From a virus, in the IMG/VR virus record IMGVR_UViG_3300050015_000195, positions 1-21,135 of that record: 21,135 nt of DNA; one strand, 5' to 3'. Positions within the stretch are counted from its first letter, which is position 1. The number at the start of each line of letters is the position of its first letter. Of this stretch, positions 2,383 through 21,135 are shown piece after piece. The notes under the pieces were generated by a model. It did not search any database, had not been told where the DNA came from, and worked only from the letters and a program-made list of their open reading frames with translations. Both the position numbers and the translations under genes were made by a program.

Positions 2383-3414
2383 TTATATCTTGTCTGCGTA
2401 GATGATCGTTTCGGTGTGAACTATTTCGACGCCACCGATAAGACCGATGTACGGCACGCTGATCCCGAGGTCGACTTTCGTCACGTCCTCGCGGGTAAGG
2501 GGCACCGGCATGTGGAACCGGGTGTTCTCCGGGGCGTTGATGTAAGCCACCATCCGGTCGAACGATCCGCTGGCGCCATTCTGTGCGCCGCCGCTGCCGC
2601 CGTAGGTCTTCCCTTCAATGGTCTGCTGTGTGCACCATTTCATAGGGACGACGCTCAGCTTCTGTCCGGCCATCTTCACAATGTTGTTCTCCATGAAGTA
2701 GTCAAGTATGGACCGATTGCCGAGGGCGTTGAGAGGCCGGGTAAGAACCTCGAACTGTGTCGGCGGTACGCCGATCGTGTTCGGATACTTGCTGTAGCCC
2801 GTGTTCCGCCAGAACGTGAGTATGATCGTCCTGAGGTCGGTCAGGATCTCGTCCTGGGTCTTCGTCAGCCAGGTGGTTGTGGCATCACCTGCGCCTTTGG
2901 GAACGTTGTAGCATGTCACGCCGCTACGGTTGGCAAGCAGGCCCGGCATACCGAGAATCTTGCTGCCGACATAAGCCAGCATGTCGCAGGTCTTCTCGTA
3001 GTCGATGCGCAGCATGCGGGTCATGAGGTCGTCAATGTTGACGCCTGCATGGGCCGCTTTGTTGAGCTCTTCGACGTCGTAGCCAATGGCCGACTTATAG
3101 GTGAACACCGGGGTCGGGGTCTTTGTCAGATCAACGCCAATGCGTTTGATCGAATTAGACTTGTTTGATCCGGGTACACCTATGCTCACACCTGCAGGAA
3201 GCACGTTGCGGAACGATGTGCTTTCAACCCAGCCGGCACCCGTTTTCACATAAAGGTCACGGGCGTATGTCTCGGCATGGAGAGGGTCGGCGATTATCGG
3301 GTCGAGGTACTCAAGCTGCCCGATCAGGAACGTTAAAGCGTTATCGTACGATTTCCCGCTGAAGGGAGAGGGAAGTTTGTCGTGCGCTTTGCCGGTAAAT
3401 ATTCTTTTCTTCAT
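2383..3414 (-). CDS. Major capsid protein (DUF2184-like)
   Basis: A 343-residue protein starting MKKRIFTGKAHDKL. The longer frame to 3507 overlaps the decoration gene and lacks a ribosome site; the ATG at 3414 follows AAGGAG by 11 bases. Conserved-looking parts include the N-terminal FLIGQLEYLDP and PLHAETYARDLYVK segments, the central YDVEELNKAAHAGVNIDDL, the PNTIGVPPTQFEVLTRP stretch, and the C-terminal FHMPVPLTREDVTKVDLGI with IGGVEI. This matches the DUF2184 branch of HK97-fold capsid proteins. It lies downstream of the DUF2213 protease and a small decoration-like gene, the usual order for this capsid type. Confidence 0.87.
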   Translation of the reverse strand: MKKRIFTGKAHDKLPSPFSGKSYDNALTFLIGQLEYLDPIIADPLHAETYARDLYVKTGAGWVESTSFRNVLPAGVSIGVPGSNKSNSIKRIGVDLTKTPTPVFTYKSAIGYDVEELNKAAHAGVNIDDLMTRMLRIDYEKTCDMLAYVGSKILGMPGLLANRSGVTCYNVPKGAGDATTTWLTKTQDEILTDLRTIILTFWRNTGYSKYPNTIGVPPTQFEVLTRPLNALGNRSILDYFMENNIVKMAGQKLSVVPMKWCTQQTIEGKTYGGSGGAQNGASGSFDRMVAYINAPENTRFHMPVPLTREDVTKVDLGISVPYIGLIGGVEIVHTETIIYADKI

Positions 3415-3463
3415 CTGTGTTGGTTCTCCTTGTTTTTGTATTCCACCACCCAGGGGACAAAGA

Positions 3464-3949
3464 CTAAGCGTTGATCCGGATCTCGACCAGGCCGTTTGCA
3501 TCGGCAAGACCGTTCCACGTTGCTCCGGGGAACTCGATCACTTCATTGGCAATCGGAGCGGCTTCAAGCGTTCCGACCGCGCGAGTTGCGCTGCCGGTAT
3601 CTCCAAGCGCGTACCGGTAATATACCGGGGCCTGGGGAGCCGGCGAACCGTTAACGCATTTCGCCATGACAAAACCGATCTTCATGCCCGTGCCGAACTG
3701 CGCAGGCAGTATCGGAGCGCTGCCGTCTACTCCACCCTGCCGCAGTTCACGCACAACGAACATGTGCCCGTTGTCGCCAGCGGCGCTGGGGAGCAAGGCT
3801 CCGCCATCGGTCGCCGGATCTGCGACAACTACCATTCCGGCGGCCATGTTGGCTACGTCGGTGTTAACAAAAGGCACCAGCTGAGAGGACTGATTTACTC
3901 TTGAGATCTCGCCAAGCAGTCTGGCAAGCGAGTTGATGATTGCAACCAT
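3464..3949 (-). CDS. Putative capsid decoration / structural cement protein
   Basis: A 161-residue protein with an N-terminal helix (MVAIINSLARLLGEISRVNQ) followed by a small, glycine- and valine-rich beta domain (GMVVVADP, GHMFVVREL, EVIEFPGATWNGLADANG). AAGGAG lies 7 bases before the ATG. Location between the protease/scaffold and the major capsid gene, plus size and composition, suggest a decoration or cement protein that binds the outer capsid, as in DUF2190-type or gp24-like proteins. The family itself is not certain; a minor head protein is the alternative. Confidence 0.65.
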   Translation of the reverse strand: MVAIINSLARLLGEISRVNQSSQLVPFVNTDVANMAAGMVVVADPATDGGALLPSAAGDNGHMFVVRELRQGGVDGSAPILPAQFGTGMKIGFVMAKCVNGSPAPQAPVYYRYALGDTGSATRAVGTLEAAPIANEVIEFPGATWNGLADANGLVEIRINA

Positions 3950-8166: not shown

Positions 8167-9608
8167 CCCAAAACCTGCCTTACGTTCTCGGCTGCCTTCG
8201 CCCAGTTTGTTTTTTTGATAGACAATCCCTTGTTTATCGCGTCCATCATGACATCGACCTGATCGTCGAATGCATGACTATCATCGGCAGAGAATGCTTC
8301 ACACTCTTCGAGGAAATCACTGACGAACGGTGCGCCTTCCGGTAAGAAGACGTACCCTGACTCAATTTGTCCTTGTATATCGAGAGCACGCGTATACTTG
8401 TCAATATTCCTCTGTATCGCTTCAATCGGGATACCGCCATCACGTTTTATCTCCTGGATCAACCCGGTACCGCTTGCCTTATCCTCAACGTACATTTTGC
8501 GTAGAGCGCTTAAAGATTCAGCTGCCTTATGTTTGTCCCAGAACGCTTTTGCTTTGCGTTTCAGGTCGGGAGCTTCCCACCGGCCACGGATGAGGTCGAT
8601 GAGGTAAAGCCGACCGTCTGCGACGCCCCACGCTGCAAAAACTGAATAGTCGTTACGCTCTTTTGTCTTTTGCGCAGTGTCAGCGGTTATGAATCGAAAT
8701 TTAAAGATCGGAGCAACGCTGTAATGCTTGAACCATTCGCACCGGAATATTACCGATGCCGAGCTTCTCCGCTTGTTTTGCATTTCCCGGTCGAATATAA
8801 TCGAGCCCATGCGCGTATCTGCTTTATCCTGCATAAGCTGATCGAATGTGTTCAACTCTGGCCAGAGAACAATTTTATTTTCAGCATCCTTGATAGCCTG
8901 AAACGTTCTCGATATAACTTTTTCATCTTTCTTTAAGCTCTCAAGAAGATCGCTATCGTTTATCGCTGTACCCTGGACATGGATGCTACAAGCTTTAGAC
9001 TTCGCTCTTGCGAGATACAATGAACCCCAAAACCATGCATTCTTTTTCTTGGTGCTCTCGATGTTGTTTATATCTTCGTCGTCGTACAGGTCGTCAACAA
9101 TGATATAATCCGGGCGGATGTTCTTGTAGTTTATTCCGCGCATCGACTCGCCGGCGCCTATTGCTGTAAATATCGTTTCCATGGTTTTCCCGTCGCACTT
9201 TGAATTTATGGAGAACTGTTTTTCTGTCCACTTCTCCGGGTTCACAAGGTTGTCGTAAACTTCTTGAAGCAATTCGTTGTTTTCTATCTCTGCACGTATC
9301 GCAAGGTTCACGCTTGCCGCTTTCGTCGAAGTCGATTGAACGTTCAGGTAGTGACGATATTCCCCAGGCTCTTCAAGCGCCTGGAAGAGAGGGATAAGAA
9401 AACATTCAATGAGCGTCTTCGCATGGTTCCGAGGTGCTTCAGTATTTGAAAATGCTGCTTTTCTTGTCTCGACAAGATATCCATGCAGCTCCTGGCAGAA
9501 CGGAAGATTGAACTTCTCGGGGAACAATAACTTTCCCCATGAGAGAATGTTCTTGTCTGCCGCCTCACGCCTGATCAGGTCAATCAGAACGTCGTGCTTT
9601 GTAGGCAT
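8163..9608 (-). CDS. terL: Terminase large subunit (packaging ATPase and nuclease)
   Basis: A 481-residue packaging motor protein. ATPase: a Walker A-like APRNHAKT (residues 58-65; terminases often have R-x-x-x-K-T rather than GKT) and Walker B YIIVDDLYDDED (168-179). The motif QGTAIND near 212-218 fits the coupling motif. RNase H-fold nuclease: FITADTAQKT (Asp310), YVEDKASG (Asp376) and HAFDDQVD (Asp448/Asp449), the three acidic positions expected. It starts 3 bp after the small terminase stop and overlaps the portal gene. It cuts concatemers and drives DNA into the prohead. Confidence 0.93.
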   Translation of the reverse strand: MPTKHDVLIDLIRREAADKNILSWGKLLFPEKFNLPFCQELHGYLVETRKAAFSNTEAPRNHAKTLIECFLIPLFQALEEPGEYRHYLNVQSTSTKAASVNLAIRAEIENNELLQEVYDNLVNPEKWTEKQFSINSKCDGKTMETIFTAIGAGESMRGINYKNIRPDYIIVDDLYDDEDINNIESTKKKNAWFWGSLYLARAKSKACSIHVQGTAINDSDLLESLKKDEKVISRTFQAIKDAENKIVLWPELNTFDQLMQDKADTRMGSIIFDREMQNKRRSSASVIFRCEWFKHYSVAPIFKFRFITADTAQKTKERNDYSVFAAWGVADGRLYLIDLIRGRWEAPDLKRKAKAFWDKHKAAESLSALRKMYVEDKASGTGLIQEIKRDGGIPIEAIQRNIDKYTRALDIQGQIESGYVFLPEGAPFVSDFLEECEAFSADDSHAFDDQVDVMMDAINKGLSIKKTNWAKAAENVRQVLG

Positions 9609-15600: not shown

Positions 15601-15963
15601 TTAATGTCTGTACATCTTGAACGCTTCATCATCGCACGGAACTAGTTCCCTGATCCTTCCGTCATCGTGTAACTTGTTCCCATACCGAAGGATATCTTCG
15701 TTGCTCATGGCCCGTTCTCCGATATAGATCGCCCAGTCGTGGATCTTGGCGCGTGTCGCCACCCAGCGGAACGGCCTGTGACCTTCTAGCGCGTTGCCTG
15801 ATGCGAAGACGCCGGGCTCCATGTCTTTGAGTTGGTGGAGTGTTAACAATTCACCACTTTCGCGGCAAGGTTTATCCTTTAACAGATCACCAGGATAACC
15901 ACAGGAACCGGCAGTGTCTGTATTTCCGTGCATTTCGTATGGACATCTTCCGGTGAAGCACAT
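15601..15963 (-). CDS. Hypothetical phage protein with N-terminal cysteine cluster
   Basis: A 120-residue protein beginning 22 bases after the 3' end of the tmRNA, with GAGGT 8 bases before the ATG. The N-terminus has MCFTGRCPYEMHG (Cys2, Cys7, His12) plus Cys21 and Cys33, a possible metal site. The C-terminal half (RPFRWVATRAKIHDWAIYIG, RELVPCDDEAFKMYR) is a pattern I have seen in phage proteins of unknown function. It likely shares a transcript with the tmRNA upstream. Confidence 0.72.
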   Translation of the reverse strand: MCFTGRCPYEMHGNTDTAGSCGYPGDLLKDKPCRESGELLTLHQLKDMEPGVFASGNALEGHRPFRWVATRAKIHDWAIYIGERAMSNEDILRYGNKLHDDGRIRELVPCDDEAFKMYRH

Positions 15964-15985: not shown

Positions 15986-16284
15986 TGGACCTGGCGGGAA
16001 TCGAACCCGCGTCCAGAATGCTCACTTCTAACGGTCTACCAGCGTAGCCTATTTGCGGTTAGGCAACCTACTGCGTGCCATCCTCCACCAATCCGTTCAG
16101 TCTAACCTCAGCATACAGACCGGATAACTCTAATCGCTGAGGCTGATACCCGAAGCCACTAAGCAGCAGCTTGGAGTTCTACTTCGTTTGCGTCGTTTGT
16201 AGCGTTCCTCTTTTTAACGAGGCCAGAGGATCCTCGGCTGGCACATCAGAACTGATTACACCCTGTCGAAACCGGTTCAGGCCC
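15986..16284 (-). ncRNA. ssrA: tmRNA (transfer-messenger RNA), phage-encoded
   Basis: A complete 299-base tmRNA. The 5' end GGGCCTGAACCGGTTTCGAC pairs with the 3' CAGGTCC as a 7 bp acceptor stem whose third pair is G-U, the mark recognised by alanyl-tRNA synthetase. The T arm is GCGGG/TTCGATT/CCCGC. Upstream of the tag is a clear H-type pseudoknot PK1: CCAG (16238-16241) with CTGG (16223-16226), interleaved with CGAGG (16232-16236) and CCTCG (16218-16222). Further pseudoknot-forming pairs follow the tag (CCTCAGC with GCTGAGG, ATCCG with CGGAT). The discriminator is A; the next bases are TAA, so CCA is not encoded. tmRNA with SmpB rescues stalled ribosomes and tags their products. It is co-oriented with the operon. 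Confidence 0.95.
16159..16203 (-). other. tmRNA proteolysis-tag reading frame
   Basis: The frame after PK1 encodes (A)TNDANEVELQAAA and ends at TAG (16159-16161). ACA AAC GAC aligns with GCA AAC GAC of the E. coli tag, so the resume codon is probably ACA at 16198-16200, with GCT at 16201-16203 as the alternative. The end is QAAA rather than the usual ALAA. Confidence 0.8.
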
Positions 16285-16292
16285 ATTACGCA

Positions 16293-16323
16293 GGGAGAGC
16301 GGCATTTTTTCAACCGCTCTCCC
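16293..16323 (-). other. Stable hairpin just upstream of the tmRNA
   Basis: A perfect 10 bp stem GGGAGAGCGG/CCGCTCTCCC with an 11-base A-rich loop lies 8 bases before the tmRNA 5' end and 12 bases after the stop of the preceding gene. There is no T-run on the minus strand, so termination is unlikely. It may be a processing signal that frees the tmRNA from the operon transcript, or a barrier protecting the mRNA 3' end. Confidence 0.6.
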
Positions 16324-16335
16324 CTTATCTGACAG

Positions 16336-16776
16336 TTAGTAGGGTTTCTCTCCGATGTCTTCGATAGGCTGGAGTTTTTGAGATTCCAGACTGTAATACG
16401 CTATCGGCTCATGCCTGACCTGGCCATTTAAGTCTTTGCCATTGATGCCGATCTGGATCACCAGCTGGACATTGAGCCACTGCTCGGGAAGTATTTCAAT
16501 TTCTTCCGATGCCGGGTACCCAATGGCCAGAAGAAACGGTTTCACAAACGGCATTGCCGCTTCGGTCATGGTGAAATTCTTGAAAGCGTACCTTCCAGCG
16601 CATGGTCCAGAAAGAACCTTGAACCATGTTTTTACATACGGCTTCTTTTCTGAACCGTCCTGCTTCAGCTCACCGATAATCGGCTCTGATTTGATGATGC
16701 TGACGTGATACTTGCCCATCGGTAACGGTTCCGAACCGGTTGCTTCTTTGACCTTTGACAGATTGACTTTCATCAT
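16336..16776 (-). CDS. Putative single-strand DNA-binding protein (DUF669-like)
   Basis: A 146-residue protein with strands such as GKYHVSIIKSEPIIGE, PYVKTWFKVLSGPCAGRYAFKNF and WLNVQLVIQIGINGKDLNGQVRHE, typical of phage DUF669/OB-fold-like proteins found beside recombination ATPases. GGAGG lies 8 bases before the first ATG; a second ATG follows directly. It would bind single-stranded DNA and work with the Sak4-like ATPase upstream. Family assignment is by pattern and neighbourhood. Confidence 0.7.
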   Translation of the reverse strand: MMKVNLSKVKEATGSEPLPMGKYHVSIIKSEPIIGELKQDGSEKKPYVKTWFKVLSGPCAGRYAFKNFTMTEAAMPFVKPFLLAIGYPASEEIEILPEQWLNVQLVIQIGINGKDLNGQVRHEPIAYYSLESQKLQPIEDIGEKPY

Positions 16777-16800: not shown

Positions 16801-17592
16801 TTATGCTGCCGCGCCAAACTTTTTACCGACTTTTGTTGTCTTCTGTTCCTCCTTCGCGGTGTTCGTAGGAGTAGTTGCACTCCCCGAAAACACCGTATTG
16901 AATATCTTTGTAAAGTCCGGTTCTACGCTGGCCCCGAGCTTGCTTGACCGGTCTTTCGCATATACGCTCTGCGAAGGCTGTACCCTTATAGACCGCACCA
17001 GCACTGTCTGCTGAGGTTTTCCGATAACTGCCGGGCCGCCATCCATGCCGAGATTCTTTTCCTGCACCGACATGTGGCCGACGATGTCGTAGAAACCCAT
17101 AACTTCCTGAGGAAGGCTCTTTCCCTGCAGTGCCGGGGCCCGCATCGTCTGGCCGCTGATCTCGTCCTTCTCGATCTGTTCCAGGGCGATCAGGATCACG
17201 TTCATCTGCAGGTCGCGGAAATAGCGGCTGATCTTGCGTACTTCCTCGATGTTCGTTCCCCAGTCGCCGATCAGCGGCTTTTCGTTCCCACTCTTTGCGA
17301 GGATACCGTCCATCGATTTCTTCTGGATCTCGGTCAAACTGTCAATGATGACCGTCTGGTACTTATGCTGGCCGGCCTTGAGGAAATCGAAGGCATCACG
17401 CAGGTCTTGGAACGTCTCGATGTTGATCCGGTCAATGTTCCGGTCAGCGACCGAAAGCATACCGCCTTCTGCATTGAGGAAGATAGGTGACGGTGCTGAT
17501 GCACCGAAGACCGTTTTACCTACTCCGCTTGCTCCATAAACCAACATCTTGATACAGTTCGTCTGATTCTCTGCTGTTAAGATTTTAACCAT
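16801..17592 (-). CDS. RecA-fold ATPase (AAA_24/Sak4-like recombinase)
   Basis: A 263-residue ATPase with Walker A YGASGVGKT (19-27) and Walker B TVIIDSLTEI (80-89), then NEKPLIGDWGTNIEEVRKI and VILIALEQIEKDE, a pattern of phage nucleotide-binding proteins of the AAA_24/Sak4 group. These promote single-strand annealing or recombination, usually with an SSB partner, which follows immediately here. GGAG lies 7 bases before the ATG. The C-terminal 50 residues are low complexity (Thr/Ala/Lys). Confidence 0.85.
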   Translation of the reverse strand: MVKILTAENQTNCIKMLVYGASGVGKTVFGASAPSPIFLNAEGGMLSVADRNIDRINIETFQDLRDAFDFLKAGQHKYQTVIIDSLTEIQKKSMDGILAKSGNEKPLIGDWGTNIEEVRKISRYFRDLQMNVILIALEQIEKDEISGQTMRAPALQGKSLPQEVMGFYDIVGHMSVQEKNLGMDGGPAVIGKPQQTVLVRSIRVQPSQSVYAKDRSSKLGASVEPDFTKIFNTVFSGSATTPTNTAKEEQKTTKVGKKFGAAA

Positions 17593-20421: not shown

Positions 20422-21135
20422 TTCTCCACCCCAAAACTGTCGCACTCGTGAAGCACTGTCCCTTTGCGGAACGCGATCTTGTGCGGATACGAAGGCTTCG
20501 GCCATTCATAAAGGTCTTTAACGGAAATCTCAATGGCGACGTAACGGTCGTTTCTTTCGCTTCTGAACTCGTCGCAAAAATACGGACGCGAACAGGCATG
20601 GAATTTGCCTTTGCCGCACTCTTCTTCTTTCGGGCTCCAGCATGGATGATCCAAAGACGTGCCCGGCTTCCAGCAAGTTTCGTCTTTGGTGCCTTCCATC
20701 GTCTTCCAGTCTTTCGATACGCGCTTGAAAAGAATGACTTTCTTGTCTTTGACCTCGCAACCTTCGCGCTTGAGGTACGGTTCCTGTTTGAAACGTTTGA
20801 CGATAGCGGTCTTTGATTTGCGGGATATTTTTGCTTTCACGTCGAATGACACAAGGGCAACTGAGAAGCCGTGCAAAACGGCTTCGCAAAGGCTTGAAAG
20901 CAAATGAACGGCAACGCTTTCCCGTGCCTCGACGTGAGAGCTTCCCCGTGCCACGACGTGAGAGCTTTCCCATGCCACGACGTGAGAGCTTTCCCATGCC
21001 TCGACGTGAGAGCTTCCCCATGCCACGACGTGAGAGCTTTCCCATGCCTCGACGTGAGAGCTTTCCCGTGCCACGACGTGAGAGCTTTCCCATGCCTCGA
21101 CGTGAGAGCTTCCCCATGCCACGACGTGAGAGCTT
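20418..21135 (-). CDS. Repeat-bearing Cys-rich phage protein (5' end outside window)
   Basis: The frame is open to the right edge, so the real start lies beyond 21135; the apparent start at 21122 is just a GTG inside the repeat. The N-terminal part is at least 8 copies of an octapeptide of the form (V/E)-A-(W/R)-(E/G)-S-S-H-V. The C-terminal part has many cysteines (ETCWKPG, HPCWSPKEEECGKGKFHACS) and ends with PHKIAFRKGTVLHECD, resembling DUF7666-type phage proteins that also carry short repeats. Such repeats may form a beta-helix. Function is unknown; its stop overlaps the helicase start (ATGA). Confidence 0.75.
   Translation of the reverse strand, partial: SSHVVAWGSSHVEAWESSHVVARESSHVEAWESSHVVAWGSSHVEAWESSHVVAWESSHVVARGSSHVEARESVAVHLLSSLCEAVLHGFSVALVSFDVKAKISRKSKTAIVKRFKQEPYLKREGCEVKDKKVILFKRVSKDWKTMEGTKDETCWKPGTSLDHPCWSPKEEECGKGKFHACSRPYFCDEFRSERNDRYVAIEISVKDLYEWPKPSYPHKIAFRKGTVLHECDSFGVEK
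20931..21135. repeat. Tandem 24 bp repeat array, 8.5 copies to the window edge
   Basis: Plus-strand units start with GACGTGAGAGCTT at 20931, 20955, 20979, 21003, 21027, 21051, 21075, 21099 and (partial) 21123; a degenerate unit precedes 20931. Differences occur only at unit positions 14 (T/C), 18 (A/G) and 23 (A/T). The period is a multiple of three and the array lies inside the coding region of the 20418-21135 gene. Confidence 0.95.

Follow-up and report, generated by a model that had tools for sequence, protein, structure and literature searches.

A short one-piece tmRNA gene among the replication genes of a phage record from IMG/VR

Introduction

Phage-encoded tmRNAs are already known, and complete genes have been described in Bxz1-type mycobacteriophages and in Bacillus phage G (PMC4131195). 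The tmRNA of phage G is a one-piece RNA of 309 nt that lies in a tRNA cluster, and its acceptor stem also starts with a non-GGGG sequence (GGGATTG). Phage Melnitz carries a complete two-piece tmRNA in a gene cluster near a riboswitch, and this RNA is thought to act early in infection (PMC9004378). Huge phages with both tmRNA and SmpB are also known (PMC7162821). One survey recorded phage tmRNAs in 402 of 18,146 genomes, a share given as 2.3% (PMC9004378), and 79 unique phage tmRNA sequences have been curated (PMC11915505). A first-pass annotation of the DNA analyzed here, which held that tmRNAs are known from only some phages, thus understated their occurrence.

The gene described here is a further example, distinct in its size and acceptor stem. 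It was found in IMGVR_UViG_3300050015_000195, a linear IMG/VR virus record that was analyzed over its whole length of 21,135 bases (the window) and is probably a phage fragment. Like its counterparts in the Bxz1-type phages, phage G and Melnitz, it is a complete tmRNA gene on a phage. Unlike the phage G gene, it lies in a replication operon, and ARAGORN found no tRNA gene in the 21,135-base fragment; unlike that of Melnitz, its RNA is one-piece, and no Rfam riboswitch occurs in the window. The few curated phage tmRNAs thereby gain an unusually small one-piece member that is embedded in an operon.

Results

Architecture of the tmRNA gene

A complete one-piece tmRNA gene occupies the minus strand of the window, with the following parts:

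15986..16284, minus strand: tmRNA (ssrA) gene, one-piece, 299 nt (ARAGORN; Rfam RF00023)
16278..16284, minus strand: 5' strand of the acceptor stem, GGGCCUG (sequence; Rfam alignment)
16206..16236, minus strand: PK1, an H-type pseudoknot, CGAGG/CCUCG and UCCUCU/AGAGGA (sequence; Rfam alignment)
16159..16194, minus strand: tag frame DANEVELQAAA, then UAG (ARAGORN coding part 91-126)
15986..15993, minus strand: 3' strand of the acceptor stem, CAGGUCC, with discriminator A (sequence; Rfam alignment)

ARAGORN called one tmRNA in the window, at exactly the boundaries given by the first-pass annotation. The Rfam covariance-model search that the annotation had proposed matched RF00023 at 16284-15983 over the full model (1-374), scoring 134.4 bits (E 7.1e-53) against a gathering score of 47 bits. 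The acceptor stem, GGGCCUG/CAGGUCC-A, comprises 7 bp with every position paired, including a G3-U70 third pair and a C4-G69 fourth pair. The T arm reads GCGGG-UUCGAUU-CCCGC, and PK1 combines the GCCGAGG...CCUCGU motif conserved in the Rfam alignment with a second, crossing helix. CCA is not encoded, as the gene ends in GGTCCA followed by TAA. Of the parts read from the letters at first pass, the 7 bp stem with its G-U third pair, the T arm, PK1 and the tag frame with its stop, are present. In these respects and in its full-length match the RNA resembles the standard tmRNA of RF00023, from which it differs in its length of 299 nt, its C-G pair at 4-69 and its unencoded CCA.

A tmRNA typically contains four pseudoknots in all. 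Further downstream pseudoknots are plausible here, and pairings for them can be traced. They do not rise above chance, since a comparable pseudoknot turned up in 296 of 300 shuffled versions of the region under a criterion too loose to be informative.

Tag reading frame

The preferred resume codon is GAC, the one called by ARAGORN, although GCA, giving ANEVELQAAA, is possible. GAC is favored because the ACAA before it is nearer to AUAA/AUAG, the usual bases before the tag (PMC4236655), than are the bases before GCA, and because it follows a CAAAC that the phage tmRNA of contig L079 also has. The bases ahead of the tag as a whole (ACAAAC) depart from the usual AUAG/AUAA. The ANEVELQAAA sequence is close to the ANDEVELAYAA and ANDNVELALAA tags of sampled bacteria. 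Tags ending in AAA were found in 9 of 27 sampled Pseudomonadota; this ending was therefore ruled out as a phage-specific trait, and given that it is common there, a working degron at the end of the tag is likely.

Position within a phage replication operon

The genes of the record were assigned with PHROG and Pfam. On the packaging and head side, the minus strand encodes terminase small and large subunits, portal, head morphogenesis and head protease proteins, the major capsid protein (MCP), and neck and tail-terminator proteins. On the replication side, the same strand encodes a Prim-Pol/D5 primase-helicase, an SSB-like protein, Sak4, an exonuclease, a VRR-NUC-like nuclease and an SNF2-type helicase. 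All families flanking the tmRNA gene are phage families, all neighboring phage genes are co-directional with it, and no bacterial housekeeping gene was recognized on the 21,135-base record. The immediate surroundings are as follows:

16801..17592, minus strand: Sak4-like annealing ATPase gene (phrog_124, E 6.9e-59; AAA_24)
16336..16776, minus strand: SSB-like protein gene, upstream of the tmRNA (phrog_6015, E 2.5e-5; DUF669, E 1.5e-4)
16292..16324, minus strand: 12-bp hairpin immediately before the tmRNA 5' end (RNA fold)
15601..15963, minus strand: 120-aa ORF starting 22 nt past the tmRNA 3' end (ORF)

The SSB-like gene and the tmRNA are separated by 51 nt and the tmRNA and the next ORF by 22 nt; the 120-aa ORF has no Pfam or PHROG match. 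These calls agree with the placement first read from the sequence, on the same strand between a putative SSB gene and a small phage gene, inside a phage replication cluster and not beside an integrase. No integrase was found among the searched genes of the 21-kb fragment, and one may lie elsewhere in the phage. A remnant of an ssrA attachment site, that is, a 3' fragment beside an integrase, was rejected given that the gene is complete and these genes include no integrase. The complete gene is interior to the virus record, between phage replication genes, and not at a prophage junction. At 20916-21135, a 24-base tandem repeat of 9.2 copies reaches the contig end, in a part of the record whose ORFs read (GKLSRRGM)n or (WESSHVVA)n, and may have broken the assembly.

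No promoter or terminator near the tmRNA exceeded shuffled expectation. The upstream hairpin has a folding energy of -24.4 kcal/mol (z -5.35; 0 of 200 shuffles equally stable) and is a possible processing signal. Given this strong hairpin just 5' of the gene and the lack of promoter or terminator signals beyond chance, the tmRNA is likely processed out of a polycistronic replication transcript.

Phage relatives

A megablast search of 50,697 phage records returned zero matches to the window. Relatives were sought through Sak4, TerL, MCP and helicase, the best being about 42-55% identical; TerL relatives were about 40-55% identical and one MCP relative 54%. The 14 phage records related through TerL or Sak4, which include many short fragments, carry no tmRNA, nor does the MCP relative, and the search for a close tmRNA-bearing phage relative thus yielded no candidate. 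In the 51-kb record L002, Sak4 and SSB are still encoded as a pair, at 42% and 29% identity, with 14 nt between the SSB stop and the next gene and no tmRNA between them. By this comparison the tmRNA looks like an accessory gene at the SSB junction.

Two of the related records contain RNA elements of their own. L002, which is related through Sak4, has a type II hammerhead ribozyme match at 1987-2051 (42.3 bits, above cut-off) and, at 8975-9085, a tRNA gene, missed by ARAGORN, whose anticodon loop is enlarged by an insertion of some 40 nt. The size of the insertion suggests an archaeal-type intron, so that the L002 phage may infect an archaeon. An abiF RNA match above cut-off lies at 3080-3117 of L014, a viral contig related through TerL.

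Length and acceptor stem compared with other tmRNAs

The gene was compared with 141 one-piece bacterial tmRNAs from five phyla and with viral tmRNAs gathered with two DNA patterns. Its 299 nt compare with 340-406 nt in the bacterial set, and its 5' start is GGGC, against GGGG in 141/141 bacterial tmRNAs. Other short viral tmRNAs measure 277 nt (L114) and 296 nt (L061). Among about 119 viral pattern hits, a set preselected for the GGGCCUG stem, 91 ARAGORN-confirmed tmRNAs carry GGGCCUG/CAGGUCC with the C-G fourth pair, 77 of them two-piece, and a matching CAGGTCCA lies near 97 of 118 hits. These tmRNAs, about 90 and mostly two-piece, come from the viral contigs L172-L289, and their GGGCCUG/CAGGUCCA acceptor stem was seen in none of the bacterial tmRNAs sampled. 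In the set gathered by PK1 only, just 3 of 18 non-host-like viral tmRNAs have a non-GGGG start. Given the preselection of the larger set and this smaller fraction, the C4-G69 stem is, as far as these sequence sets indicate, an enrichment in viral tmRNAs and not a rule.

Among Pseudomonadota, the same stem pattern occurred in 1 of 399 genomes, whose own alphaproteobacterial tmRNA lies elsewhere. Alphaproteobacterial two-piece tmRNAs start the stem with GGGG in 28 of 30 cases (the stem of the other two was not called), and alphaproteobacterial acceptor-stem genes read GGATCGAC, not GGNTTCGAC. Host identification through the tmRNA 5' end was also attempted; a narrower 20-base 5' pattern, run against 84,980 species genomes, hit ten of them, in no case at a tmRNA. 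Global RNA alignment singled out no donor lineage.

Three uncultivated viral tmRNAs share individual features with the window gene. That of L041 is identical in its first 20 bases, that of L079 has CAAAC before the tag and a QAAA ending, and that of L214 has the same acceptor stem and an -AAA ending. However, these belong to much larger phages (106-198 kb), with longer RNAs, other tags and only about 70% aligned identity to the window tmRNA.

Discussion

Given that the parts needed for charging and tagging are intact, we consider it likely that the phage encodes a working one-piece tmRNA that performs ribosome rescue and tagging with the SmpB, AlaRS and proteases of its host. The G3-U70 pair, A73, T arm and PK1 are present, as is a normal-length tag frame whose -AAA end resembles a degron. 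The head, packaging and replication genes lie on one strand of a virus record, and the tmRNA fills a gap between co-directional genes, beside a strong hairpin and with no promoter or terminator signal of its own beyond chance. Comparable tmRNAs also lie in the interior of other phage contigs. Against this stand the atypical ACAAAC before the tag, the C4-G69 pair unlike that of any sampled bacterial tmRNA, and the 14 related records, many of them short, that have no tmRNA. Most likely, the RNA would be transcribed together with the replication operon and then released by RNase P and 3' exonucleases of the host, after which host nucleotidyltransferase would add CCA and host AlaRS would charge alanine through G3-U70. 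Since no SmpB gene was found among the searched ORFs of the 21-kb fragment, host SmpB would need to accept this RNA; together they would, in infected cells, free ribosomes that have stalled on broken mRNAs of phage or host, and the (D)ANEVELQAAA tag would send the products to host proteases. The phage would presumably benefit from such rescue. The first-pass annotation proposed that the RNA perhaps replaces or redirects the trans-translation of the host, which may be the case.

The RNA might instead act as a decoy that weakens or redirects host trans-translation, either by binding host SmpB, AlaRS or EF-Tu or by adding an altered tag. Mycobacteriophage DS6A has a TLD-only tmRNA, a similar molecule inhibits host tmRNA (PMC4131195, PMC11915505), and the window RNA is both shortened and unusual in its acceptor pair. 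Unlike the DS6A molecule, though, it still has PK1 and an intact tag frame with a degron-like AAA end, parts for which a decoy would have no use, and AAA-ending tags are ordinary in Pseudomonadota; we regard this explanation as unlikely. Recent capture of a host ssrA by imprecise excision of an ssrA-integrated element, with no selected function, appears improbable. Although ssrA is a common integration site, and many viral contigs have host-type tmRNAs near their ends (e.g., L052-L060, mostly with the tag ANDENYALAA), the window gene is interior to an operon in a fragment with no integrase found. Its length and acceptor stem differ from all 141 sampled bacterial tmRNAs, and its intact pairs, PK1 and frame suggest long upkeep in phages. 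That the contig is a bacterial chromosome carrying the only ssrA of the host, an outcome named at first pass as decisive against a phage tmRNA, is exceedingly improbable, and no evidence in its favor emerged: the DNA is an IMG/VR virus record with terminase, portal, head protease, capsid, neck, tail-terminator, primase-helicase and Sak4 genes, no bacterial housekeeping gene was recognized on it, and the 20-base 5' pattern met no tmRNA in the species genomes.

Beyond the preferred reading of a phage-encoded rescue RNA, it is conceivable, if somewhat doubtful, that a widespread phage-specific tmRNA type exists in one- and two-piece forms, marked by a C4-G69 pair that cellular tmRNAs avoid. Perhaps the pair alters how the RNA is charged, how it competes with its host counterpart, or how it is recognized by elements, of the host or of rivals, that use ssrA. 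The fourth acceptor pair is a testable sequence mark by which many phage tmRNAs seem to differ from cellular ones; it would help to tell genuine phage tmRNAs apart from ssrA genes captured from hosts, and to explore why tmRNAs occur in phages. The small size and the acceptor stem merit a systematic look.

Other phage tmRNAs in the collection have distinctive features. At 2696-3678 of the 106-kb phage contig L079, the tmRNA gene (tag ANAVANDNDVALPLQAAA) lies 7 nt downstream of a gene whose short product resembles a release factor, with an RF-1 (GGQ) domain and a partial PCRF domain; the two form a possible phage translation-termination and rescue cassette. Additionally, the phage one-piece tmRNAs of L072, L075, L091, L242, L243 and L258 have unusually long tags of 21-33 aa (e.g., AEEAELNSLLAEAESIFNNADEVLANAEAVAA).
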